The notes beneath the pieces were generated by a model, which worked only from the letters and a program-made list of their open reading frames with translations, was not told the origin of the DNA and did no database searches. 64,000 nucleotides of DNA from Antricoccus suffuscus. GTDB taxonomy: Bacteria > Actinomycetota > Actinomycetes > Mycobacteriales > Antricoccaceae. A program made the position numbers and the translations under genes. Where the stretch lies: NCBI RefSeq assembly GCF_003003235.1, contig NZ_PVUE01000001.1, positions 248,001 to 312,000 on the forward strand, read 5' to 3'. This document shows positions 31,354-64,000 of the stretch, in pieces. Numbering within the stretch: the stretch's first letter is position 1; each line of letters starts with the position of its first letter.

Positions 31354-32901
31354 ATGACCGCTCAGACACTGACCAGGTCCACTACCGCCAAGCCCAGCAC
31401 CACAAACATCAACGACGCGGAGAAGTTTCTGGCTAACTTCTCCTCGACACTCGATCGGGTCTTCCACGACCGGATCGATGCCGACCTCATGGAGTCGTCT
31501 CGCGGCATACCGTCGTTTGTCATGCGCGATGTGTTGGCGGCGGAACCGGTCAGGGCGTTCATTCCCAGCAAGTTCGGCGGTTACGGCGACACACCGATCG
31601 CCGGCCAGGCCATGCTCGACCTCGCGTCGTACCACTCGATGTCGCTTGGGCTCACGCTCGGTATCAACAGCGCGCTATTCGTCCAGCCGGTCGCGAAGTA
31701 CGCCGACGAGCAGGTCGCCGCTCGCGTGCTCAACAAGATCGGATCCGGTGCCGCAATGGGCGGGCTGATGATCACCGAGCCCGACTTCGGCACCGATGCG
31801 CTCGGCATGCGTACGTCGTGGCACGACGAGAACGGCCGCTACCGCATTCGCGGCACCAAGCACTGGGCCGGCCTGACCGGGTGCGCGGACTACTGGCTCA
31901 TGATGGCCCGCCCCATGAACGACTCCGGCGATCTCAGCCAGGGCGTCGACATGTTCATCTGCGAGCAGGACGATCCGCAGCAGAAGATCGAGGTCATCGA
32001 GTACTACAAGTCGCTTGGCCTCTATGGCATTCCTTACGGCAAGAACAAGGTCGATGTATCGGTTCCTGCGGATCATCGCCTGCAAGGCGGCCGCGGTGGC
32101 CTGCGGATGATGCTCGATACGCTGCACCGCAGCCGAGTGCAGTTTCCGGCCATGTCCGTCGGGTTCGTACGCCGGATGGTCGACGAGGCGATCGATCACT
32201 GCCACACCCGGGTCGCCGGCGGCAAACGGCTCGTCGAGCACGACCAGGTGCGCTCCCGGCTCGCCCGCATGCAGGGCCAGCTGACGGCGATCTCCGCGCT
32301 CGGCCTGTATGCCGCCGAAAACGCGCATCTTGAGCACGACCTGTCACGGATCGGTCGCGAGGCCAACGCGATCAAGTCCGTCTGCACCGATTACATGCAT
32401 GACTCCGCGCATTCGCTGCTGCAGCTGGTCGGCGCTAAGGGCTACCGGCAGGACCACATCGCCGGCCGCGCGATCGTCGATGCCCGTCCGTTCCAGATCT
32501 TCGAGGGCTCCAACGACGTGCTCTACGCACAGGTGGGCACCAAGATCGTCGAGACCATGCGCAAAAAGGGCACCGACAATCTCGGTGAGTACCTGCGCAA
32601 CGATCCAGCGACGGCACGCGCCGCCGAGGTCATGGGCGCGGCGCTCAACGTAGTCGTCTGCGACCGTCCGCAGCAGCGTCGACTCGTCGAGGTCGGCGCG
32701 GTATTCGCCCGCGTCTTTGCACTTGAAGCCGTGCTGGAGCTCGGCTCTCGCGGGTTCGCTCCGGACCATATTGCCGCCGCCATCGGAATGCTCCGCGAGG
32801 ACGCGGGTCGCTGGCTCAACGACTTGCGCGCACAGCTCGCGCCCGACGTCGCACCGGACTCGATCGGCTACGGCGCCTGGATGCCTTACCTCAAGGCTTG
32901 A
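31354..32901 (+). CDS. Acyl-CoA dehydrogenase (long form)
   Basis: ATG 31354 follows GAAGGAG at good spacing; 515 residues, longer than the usual 380-400. MITEPDFGTDALGMRT is the FAD/substrate block, IRGTKHWAGLTGCADYWL follows, and FQIFEGSNDVLYAQVG has the Glu in the usual base position. An extra C-terminal helical part of about 90 residues (from NDPATARAAEVMG) resembles the long-form members. The substrate is unknown; a long-chain or aromatic acyl-CoA is possible. Its tandem upstream palindromes suggest tight repression. Confidence 0.9.
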   Translation: MTAQTLTRSTTAKPSTTNINDAEKFLANFSSTLDRVFHDRIDADLMESSRGIPSFVMRDVLAAEPVRAFIPSKFGGYGDTPIAGQAMLDLASYHSMSLGLTLGINSALFVQPVAKYADEQVAARVLNKIGSGAAMGGLMITEPDFGTDALGMRTSWHDENGRYRIRGTKHWAGLTGCADYWLMMARPMNDSGDLSQGVDMFICEQDDPQQKIEVIEYYKSLGLYGIPYGKNKVDVSVPADHRLQGGRGGLRMMLDTLHRSRVQFPAMSVGFVRRMVDEAIDHCHTRVAGGKRLVEHDQVRSRLARMQGQLTAISALGLYAAENAHLEHDLSRIGREANAIKSVCTDYMHDSAHSLLQLVGAKGYRQDHIAGRAIVDARPFQIFEGSNDVLYAQVGTKIVETMRKKGTDNLGEYLRNDPATARAAEVMGAALNVVVCDRPQQRRLVEVGAVFARVFALEAVLELGSRGFAPDHIAAAIGMLREDAGRWLNDLRAQLAPDVAPDSIGYGAWMPYLKA

Positions 32902-46639: not shown

Positions 46640-46688
46640 GTTAGCGGGAGAGTTTGGTGCGCTGAGCGCACCAAATCTTCCAGCTAAG
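46640..46688. repeat. 49-bp palindromic repeat, copy 1
   Basis: It starts GTTAGCGGGAGAG, has the perfect stem TTTGGTGCGC-TGA-GCGCACCAAA in the middle and ends CCAGCTAAG; the outer parts are also partly complementary (TTAGC with GCTAA, GGA with TCC). It matches copy 2 at 47551 in 46 of 49 positions, in the same orientation. It lies 7 bp beyond the stop of the DUF559 gene. Confidence 0.9.
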
Positions 46689-46695
46689 TCTCAGA

Positions 46696-47517
46696 CTAGG
46701 GGCATTTGCGGCAACGCACGAACGACCCCGCCCAACCCAGCTGGATGAGCTGACCGACTACTTCAACCGCGACGCCGCACGGTTCCACGAAAATCTCCTC
46801 GGGCCCGTAGCGCAATGTCGGATGACCGGCGCGCACGTTGCGGTTGTCGCGAGCCCGGTCCCGAAATGCATCGGCATGCCAACGCCGCCCATCAACTTCA
46901 ACGACGAGCCCGCAATCCTCGTACAGATTGTCGACCCATTCCCGTTCACTCCCGGCATGAGCTTGCCGGTGCGCGGTCGGTAAGCCGTGCGGTCGTTCGA
47001 CCCGATTGACGTAGTCGAGTTCGATCACGCTGTGTACGCCGGCGCCGACGTCATCGAGCAACTTCTCAATCAACTCGCGGTGTGGCATTCGTTGGCGGCG
47101 AGAAAGAGCTTCCTTTAACCGCGCTGGTGTCGTGAGCCGACGCTGAGCAACGACGGTCACCCACCCGACGATCTCGCGCGGCGTGGCTGTGCTGCACAAA
47201 TCCAGCACCGTGTCCTCGACTCCTACGCACCGCAGCCCACTTCGGGTGCGGTGTCGACGTACCGTCGGATCGACGCGGATGTACGACGCGTACTTCCGGG
47301 CGGTCACGCGCTGATGATGCGGGACCATCAGCTCGATCGGAAATCCAGGCTCATCCGCGAAGTCCTGGAGGTACGCCGCGGCATGCCCCGAGATGAGCGC
47401 CTCGCTACCTCCAACGATGAAAGCCGACCACGCGAGCGCTGACCAGGGAGGCGTCGCGGTGCCGGTCCAAAACATGCCCCGATCGATCGCGAACCGCTGG
47501 CAGGGTGCTTGCCGCAA
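46696..47517 (-). CDS. DUF559 / Vsr-like endonuclease domain protein
   Basis: From the TTG at 47517 the protein has 273 residues; an ATG at 47475 (MFWTGTATPPW) is the alternative. The first 170 residues resemble the AbiEi-type DNA-binding and wing region common in actinobacterial proteins of this class. The C-terminal 100 residues carry a PD-(D/E)xK nuclease core of Vsr/DUF559 type: WVDNLYEDCGLVVEVDGRRW, then HADAFRDRARDNRNV and TLRYGPEEI. The gene is bracketed by two copies of a 49-bp palindromic repeat and interrupts an otherwise catabolic gene order. Its biological role is not established. Confidence 0.8.
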   Translation of the reverse strand: MRQAPCQRFAIDRGMFWTGTATPPWSALAWSAFIVGGSEALISGHAAAYLQDFADEPGFPIELMVPHHQRVTARKYASYIRVDPTVRRHRTRSGLRCVGVEDTVLDLCSTATPREIVGWVTVVAQRRLTTPARLKEALSRRQRMPHRELIEKLLDDVGAGVHSVIELDYVNRVERPHGLPTAHRQAHAGSEREWVDNLYEDCGLVVEVDGRRWHADAFRDRARDNRNVRAGHPTLRYGPEEIFVEPCGVAVEVVGQLIQLGWAGSFVRCRKCP

Positions 47518-47550
47518 ATCTGTGGATAGCGCGAAAGGCTGTGGACGGCG

Positions 47551-47599
47551 GTTAGCGGGAAAGTTTGGTGCGCTGAGCGCATCAAGTCTTCCAGCTAAG
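47551..47599. repeat. 49-bp palindromic repeat, copy 2
   Basis: It has the same orientation as copy 1 with three substitutions (at 47561, 47582 and 47586), two of which weaken the central stem. It lies 14 bp beyond the GntR stop and 33 bp upstream of the TTG start of the DUF559 gene. The distance between the two copies is 911 bp from start to start. Confidence 0.9.
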
Positions 47600-63013: not shown

Positions 63014-63035
63014 GCGCACCACCCACATCGGTAGC

Positions 63036-63075
63036 GTCCGGCAAAGTGGTCGCTATGACGACCACTTTGCCGGAC
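63036..63075. repeat. 40-bp palindromic element, copy 1 (intergenic)
   Basis: GTCCGGCAAAGTGGTCG at 63036-63052 and its exact complement at 63059-63075 flank CTATGA, a 17-bp perfect stem. It lies between the two ATPase genes, 22 bp upstream of the DppF start and 17 bp downstream of the DppD stop. Confidence 0.9.
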
Positions 63076-63092
63076 CCTGTGCTCATACATCG

Positions 63093-64000
63093 TCATTCGG
63101 CGTTCTCCCCAAGTGGGTGGAAGCACGCGTACCCGAAGTCCTGCCCGCCCGTTTCGTCGCGTCCGGCGGGGTGGTCGCTATGACGACCACTTTGCCGGAC
63201 GTCAGCCGGTACGCCGGTCCACGGCGGCTGGGTCTTACAGATGTCGGTCGCGAAGTCGCACCGGTTGGCGAACACGCACCCCTCCGGGAACTTCCCGGCC
63301 GGCGGCACGCTGCCACGGATCGTCGTCAAATGGCCCTCGGCGTCGACCGCGTCCAGGTCGGAGGCGGCGATCAGCCCCGCCGTGTACGGGTGCTGCGGGT
63401 TGGTGAAGACATCGGCAACCGTGCCGGCCTCGACTATCCGCCCGCCGTACATGACAAGGACTCGCTGGCAGAGCATCGCGACGACGGCGAGGTCGTGCGT
63501 GATGAACAGCAGCGCGGCGTTCTGGCGATCGGCTTCGCTGACGACGAGGTCGAGCACTTGTGCCTGGACGGTCACGTCGAGCGCCGTGGTGGGCTCGTCG
63601 CAGATCAGCAGGTCGGGTTCGTTGGCCATCGCGATCGCGATCACGGCGCGTTGCCGCTGACCGCCGGACAACTGGTGAGGGTATGAACGCGCGGCGCGTT
63701 CCGGGTCGGGCAAACCCACCCGCTCGAGGAGGCGCACCGCTTCGCCGTACGCCGCCTTCTTGTTCGGCTGCGTATCGTGCAGCAGCATGGTTTCGGCGAT
63801 CTGCTTGCCGACCCGCATCGTCGGGTTAAGCGCGGTCATCGGTTCCTGGAAGACCATCGCGAGGTCCCGGCCGCGACGGCCGGCAAGAGCGGACTCCTTG
63901 GCGCCGATCACTTCGCCGTCCAGCACGCTGATCGAGCCGCTGGCGGTGAGGCCGGGAGAGAGCAGGCCCATGATCGACAGCGCCGTCAGCGACTTGCCGG
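63093..64000 (-). CDS. Dpp/Opp-type ABC transporter ATPase (DppD family), 5' end outside window
   Basis: The gene runs off the right edge just inside Walker A (GKSLTALSIMG); about 302 residues are visible. MVFQEPMTALNP is the Q-loop, LSGGQRQRAVIAIAMA the signature, LLICDEPTTALDV Walker B, and the oligopeptide C-terminal extension GCVFANRCDFATDICKTQPP has the usual cysteines. Between PP and YACFHPL, where relatives have a short link, there are about 20 extra residues (from DVRQSGRHSDHPAG) encoded by palindromic element copy 2. The rest of the protein looks intact. Confidence 0.92.
   Translation of the reverse strand, partial: GKSLTALSIMGLLSPGLTASGSISVLDGEVIGAKESALAGRRGRDLAMVFQEPMTALNPTMRVGKQIAETMLLHDTQPNKKAAYGEAVRLLERVGLPDPERAARSYPHQLSGGQRQRAVIAIAMANEPDLLICDEPTTALDVTVQAQVLDLVVSEADRQNAALLFITHDLAVVAMLCQRVLVMYGGRIVEAGTVADVFTNPQHPYTAGLIAASDLDAVDAEGHLTTIRGSVPPAGKFPEGCVFANRCDFATDICKTQPPWTGVPADVRQSGRHSDHPAGRDETGGQDFGYACFHPLGENAE
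63161..63200. repeat. 40-bp palindromic element, copy 2 (inside DppD gene)
   Basis: It has the same 40 bp as copy 1 except that AAA in the left arm is GGG (63168-63170). It begins GTCCGGCGGGGTGGTCG and ends with the intact right arm CGACCACTTTGCCGGAC. It lies in the coding region for the C-terminal extension, in frame, 125 bp from copy 1 in the same orientation. Confidence 0.9.

Follow-up and report, generated by a model that had tools for sequence, protein, structure and literature searches.

A DUF559/Vsr-like endonuclease gene enclosed by direct palindromes in Antricoccus suffuscus, probably one of a family of mobile units in Actinobacteria

REPtrons, in which TnpA-REP is found together with REP palindromes (PMC8266576, PMC3116915), are the known system that comes closest in layout and behaviour to the unit described here, a gene for an AbiEi-like domain joined to a Vsr-like nuclease that lies between two palindromes. 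As in the REPtron/RAYT systems, a single-gene nuclease unit adjoins palindromes, the genome contains numerous extragenic, non-autonomous palindromes that match these in sequence type, and the palindrome classes pair with distinct protein clusters. The differences are in the protein, RAYTs being HUH/Y1 transposases whereas the protein of this unit combines an AbiEi-like winged helix-turn-helix (wHTH) with a Vsr-like nuclease, and in the ends, which here consist of directly oriented full palindromes of 40-60 bp. EDxHD homing genes encode the same class of nuclease with conserved E/D/H/D residues and would be expected to spread selfishly to a specific site, but the present unit is free-standing, outside any intron or intein, enclosed by palindromes and equipped with an AbiEi-like domain. 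The AbiEi antitoxins of type IV AbiE systems share the N-terminal AbiEi_4 domain and bind inverted repeats, whereas the unit has no AbiEii toxin and carries a C-terminal DUF559/Vsr-like nuclease instead; a type IV AbiE pair was therefore rejected on the absence of an adjacent AbiEii (DUF1814) toxin gene. The DUF559/PRK09767 "endonuclease-like" proteins (PDB 3hrl) share the C-terminal nuclease domain, but the solved protein is a single domain of 104 aa. As far as titles and abstracts go, papers mentioning DUF559 describe no palindromic flanks, and a full-text literature search, whose coverage did not extend to subscription papers and most preprints, returned no description of the unit, which thus looks previously undescribed.

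The window analysed here, a stretch of 64,000 nucleotides of the A. suffuscus genome, contains the following features.

46640..46688, no strand: 3' flanking palindrome, type A (direct repeat, fold, flank alignment score 41.5)
46696-47517, minus strand: DUF559/Vsr-like nuclease gene, 273 aa, TTG start (catalytic residues present)
47551..47599, no strand: 5' flanking palindrome, type A (direct repeat, fold, flank alignment)
63032..63075, no strand: type F solo palindrome whose cognate DUF559 unit is G000:C1:477061; not part of the window unit
63155..63205, no strand: another type F solo palindrome, diverged, about 80 bp beyond the preceding one

The sequence-only reading had pointed to two 49-bp direct repeats around the DUF559 gene, each a long imperfect hairpin situated directly after a stop codon, and these repeats were recovered together with their coordinates. 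The two copies, 49 bp each, are identical at 46/49 positions, have the same orientation and are 911 bp apart from start to start. Each is a 47-bp near-palindrome with the core TTTGGTGCGCT-N-AGCGCACCAAA, a pattern for which the chance expectation in the window is 0.00 occurrences, and each forms a stable hairpin when folded as RNA (z-score -4.3 to -6.5). The 3' copy lies 7 bp past the DUF559 stop codon. The 5' copy, on the other side of the gene, is separated from the TTG start by about 34 bp and follows the stop codon of the neighbouring GntR gene after 14 bp; SDR genes are the other neighbours. The GntR-SDR junction was also sought in relatives, where carriers of the GntR operon had no SDR genes downstream. 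An RNA element was rejected as a reading of the window palindrome, given that an Rfam search gave no match of note and that no covariation signal beyond column make-up was seen in the window's own palindrome family.

The type A palindrome is present at eight further places in the source genome, each just 3' of a gene, and none of these eight copies has a DUF559 paralogue beside it. It is absent from four other genomes of the same family. On its own the type A repeat therefore resembles a dispersed gene-end hairpin, and a genome search with the 49-mer, proposed earlier as a check, failed to place any of these further copies beside a DUF559 gene. Since each DUF559 gene has its own palindrome sequence, such a search turns up nothing but solo copies. 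Taken alone it would wrongly have appeared to refute the idea of a cassette, a result that was reversed by the flanks of the paralogues themselves.

Paired cognate palindromes were found at 6/7 full-length DUF559 paralogues of the source genome, i.e. at the window copy and at C1:172225, C1:19454, C3:73287, C3:151377 and C1:477061, the only paralogue without a pair being C1:594755 at the end of contig C1. Each pair is a direct repeat of one palindrome of 38-50 bp, the sequence of which differs from unit to unit. In four intact paralogues the 5' palindrome ends 90-97 bp ahead of the start codon, and the match to the 3' palindrome sets in anywhere from 8 bp before the end of the stop codon to 35 bp past it. 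The intact units, 1.1-1.2 kb long, have room for one gene. When the two flanks of a gene were compared by local alignment, 0/151 non-DUF559 genes of similar size in the source genome (genes called with a simple codon-usage finder) had a flank score ≥20; the one control gene that did reach this score (in L169) was by its coordinates the C1:172225 DUF559 gene itself. At C1:164025 a palindrome is joined to about 100 bp from the 3' end of the C1:172225 gene, and this truncated copy has 154 bp in common with the C1:172169 unit at 98% identity. This stretch starts, to within 3 bp, at the outer edge of the palindrome and breaks off inside the gene; the palindrome is therefore the end of the duplicated unit. 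The units are thus bounded by cognate palindromes that constitute the ends of the element, and they can be present in either orientation. As a separate observation, a type F pair (G000:C8:30535-30584 and 32363-32410, L328) surrounds a 534-aa non-DUF559 gene, which may be due to chance or may represent a unit with other cargo.

Intact members of the protein family have about 305-340 residues, with an AbiEi-like winged-helix start and a DUF559/Vsr-like nuclease end. Pfam AbiEi_4 was matched in 8/11 members and DUF559 in 6/11, the N-terminal part matched PDB 6y8q and 9hlo (E ~1e-4), and the family profile matched PDB 3hrl ("endonuclease-like protein", E 1.3e-4). Among 105 proteins the residues E198, D228, E239, D241, H246, D252 and D256, as well as Cys 279, 301 and 304 (L058 numbering), were nearly or fully invariant. 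Given this conservation of the active-site residues, the nuclease appears to be under selection to work, although no activity data are available. The pattern expected of an EDxHD homing endonuclease, conserved E, D, H and D in a Vsr-like fold, is met, with the fold itself inferred by sequence from PDB 3hrl in the absence of a structure of this protein. The window protein gave only a weak match to Pfam DUF559 (E 0.0017, below the Pfam cut-off), and its single-sequence structure prediction was unusable (pLDDT 41). Compared with the paralogues it lacks about 45 residues of the N-terminal AbiEi-like wHTH, and the leader 5' of its gene measures about 34 bp as against about 90 bp in intact paralogues. 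This late start with a short leader indicates that the DNA-binding segment has been lost, and the window copy is therefore, as judged from its sequence, probably defective and no longer mobile. Its palindromic ends are intact, and the eight solo type A copies remain in the genome.

AbiEi antitoxins bind inverted repeats in their own promoter (PMC7319586), and this is a reason to expect that the AbiEi-like domain of the nuclease recognises the palindromes. The same property, together with the AbiEi-like N terminus and the position of the 5' palindrome some 90 bp ahead of the start codon in four intact paralogues, would also fit an autoregulated defence gene or type IV toxin-antitoxin-like gene, with the upstream palindrome serving as the operator to which the domain binds and the downstream palindrome serving as a terminator. 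We give this explanation only a slim chance, as the units of about 1.1 kb hold no toxin partner, the 3' copy and the dispersed gene-end solo copies are not operators, and the empty, solo and inverted states found at one and the same site (see below) point to mobility. Use as an operator could coexist with mobility.

Solo palindromes of the six types found in the source genome number at least 39 and are dispersed, far outnumbering the units. This meets, with 39 solo copies, the expectation for RAYT systems that dispersed extragenic palindromes should be cognate to the flanks of the gene; no shared tetranucleotide of the GTAG/CGTC type was apparent at the foot of the hairpins, as judged by inspection only. 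The solo copies prefer gene ends, and 34/39 follow a stop codon at a distance of no more than 60 bp. Convergent genes flank 18 copies and divergent genes 3. Near the right end of the window a pair of type F palindromes was observed, of which the copy at 63155-63205 falls within a predicted ORF.

The position of the solo copies just past stop codons and between convergent genes, together with the stable hairpins of both window copies, raises the alternative, in part already noted from the sequence, that these are ordinary bidirectional terminators or mRNA-protecting gene-end hairpins that became duplicated around the gene by chance, with the nuclease unrelated to them. However, terminators have no need of identical sequence, direct matched pairs, each with a sequence of its own, enclose many DUF559 genes across many genera but none of the 151 other genes of similar size, and whole units come and go at orthologous sites (see below). 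The window hairpins are stable but have no T-run on either side, and an intrinsic terminator was rejected on that criterion. A secondary role in termination is possible, but it leaves the matched pairs unexplained; as a full explanation the terminator is largely refuted, and we regard it as very improbable.

The flanks of related genes in a sample of the class were compared by local alignment, with flanks from different loci paired as control. A score ≥20 was obtained for 55/119 genes as compared with 3/352 mismatched flank pairs, and the 55 loci with cognate flanks are spread over about 16 genera (counted from genome labels). Likewise, a strong palindrome was present at the 3' end of 55/119 genes as compared with 2/119 equal stretches inside genes. 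Roughly half of the 119 loci have no clearly matched palindrome pair, and these could be either decayed units or genes that were never part of a unit. Similarity between proteins was correlated with similarity between palindromes (rho 0.47, n = 23), a value reached in 2/1000 permutations, and at three non-orthologous loci in different species (L281, L282 and L286) a common palindrome goes with a common protein cluster; as a counter-example, the proteins of L291 and L297 are 88% identical and have different palindromes. The prediction that other palindrome copies would adjoin DUF559 genes was thus fulfilled in the source genome and in these genera, each time with the unit's own palindrome sequence, and the units have dispersed to non-orthologous places.

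No copies were present among the plasmids in PLSDB and nothing was found in viral contigs. Carriage by phages or plasmids was rejected on these grounds, with only two unverified faecal scaffolds matched, one of them with a palindrome pair. In that scaffold (MT837139.1, human faecal, labelled phage; L403) a distant DUF559 relative lies within the matched pair TCGGTGATGCA...TGCATCACCG, and the arrangement may extend to gut bacteria. Several genomes contain repeated palindromes of 43-47 bp with a GCGCTNAGCGC-like core (L117/L132 in G010, L120/L129/L137 in G035 and L118/L127 in G038), and no DUF559 match was obtained in these three genomes at E 1e-5. RNA-model matches in G010, G035, G038 and G046 were rejected as palindromes of the window type and belong to other palindrome families. 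Two near-identical palindromes in G046 (C1:112725-114756, L119/L128) are 1,983 bp apart and have the same outer flanks, a sequence arrangement that suggests tandem duplication of a palindrome-containing segment.

Gain and loss of units were examined by comparing two orthologous junctions in 12 species of the genus g71. Site 1 lies between a cation transporter gene and a convergent fumarylacetoacetase-like gene (names from reading the flanks). Here a full unit was present in six species (G177, G245, G288, G227, G116 and G166, the last running towards a contig end and read from the left side only) and, in opposite orientation, in G270. The unit was decayed in G207 and reduced to a remnant in G099, G197 had a solo palindrome next to a small Hsp20-like gene (L356), and G131 had no gene. 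At the same site G187 has an insert of about 2.85 kb between the flanks, comprising a DUF559 gene plus further sequence (L285). Site 2 is bordered by an IclR-like gene and, convergent with it, an oxidoreductase-like gene. Here G177 has a full unit of 1125 bp, G270 and G197 have one clean palindrome with the same boundary as the G177 unit, G227 has a solo palindrome with some extra sequence, and G288 and G207 have no palindrome and only a TGATCA core. At a given site the inner stems of the units often differ between species, and no clear target duplication was seen outside the unit ends in these comparisons. Units, solo palindromes and empty sites thus alternate at orthologous positions, although the order of gains and losses is undetermined given that the states come from species and not from strains. 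The clean sites with a single repeat that had been anticipated were found, along with sites lacking any palindrome. With occupied and empty orthologous sites on the one hand and non-orthologous copies with boundaries at their ends on the other, the criteria for a mobile element are met. We consider it likely that an actinobacterial mobile unit is involved, consisting of one gene for an AbiEi-like domain joined to a Vsr-like (EDxHD-type) endonuclease between unit-specific palindromes of 40-60 bp. Points against this reading are the loci without a clearly matched pair, the close proteins with different palindromes, the absence of copies from PLSDB plasmids and the lack of covariation in the window's own palindrome family. 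The paralogue pairs and the states of the orthologous sites also support the earlier proposal of a cassette of about 0.9 kb in which nuclease and REP-like hairpin move together.

That several species have a solo palindrome exactly where another has a full unit is also what would be expected of a homing-type selfish gene, the nuclease of which breaks both strands of a solo palindrome without the gene so that recombinational repair copies the gene in; the solo copies would then be pre-existing gene-end hairpins that serve as targets and not derivatives of the unit. The nearly invariant EDxHD-type residues, the listing of EDxHD among six homing endonuclease families (PMC6083498) and the large excess of solo copies over units are in line with this. 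However, repair would have only about 25 bp of homology on either side to work with, both ends of every unit are full palindromes, and the truncated C1:164025 copy gives the impression of a unit copied incompletely, or partly deleted after insertion, and not of homing. Such homing is possible, and on balance we find it doubtful.

Two further types of element were rejected. A system driven by an HUH transposase was excluded by the lack of any match to the Y1 (HUH) transposase family PF01797 in the whole source genome (0 matches, controls positive), and a DDE insertion sequence or MITE by the single AbiEi-DUF559 gene, the whole-palindrome direct ends and the lack of a clear duplication outside them.

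For the mobile unit the following mechanism may be envisaged, all steps of which are inferred. The AbiEi-like domain would recognise the cognate palindrome, the nuclease would nick or cut a solo or empty target site, and repair or strand transfer would copy the gene and one palindrome into that site. Recombination or slippage between the direct palindromes could subsequently delete the gene and leave a solo palindrome. That the nuclease drives the turnover of the units is likewise an inference, and another host enzyme could spread the palindromes instead. The solo palindromes may for the most part be remnants of units, for the most part be targets, or be mobile by themselves.

The behaviour of the units is REPtron- or homing-like, and a new class of element remains possible. 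In our judgement the chances are about even that these units form a new class of bacterial mobile element, present in many actinobacterial families and based on an AbiEi-Vsr-like nuclease that recognises palindromes, brings about its own movement and seeds palindromes at gene ends without a transposase, recombinase, intron or intein, the inner stem of the palindrome diversifying with the specificity of the enzyme. The dozens of natural variants, each enzyme with its own palindrome of 40-60 bp, provide ready pairs of nuclease and recognition site for testing. If true, the unit would be a second, unrelated solution to the RAYT/REP arrangement, it would explain the origin of gene-end palindrome families in Actinobacteria, and it would provide the large, multi-copy family of "DUF559" proteins, which are uncharacterised, with a function.
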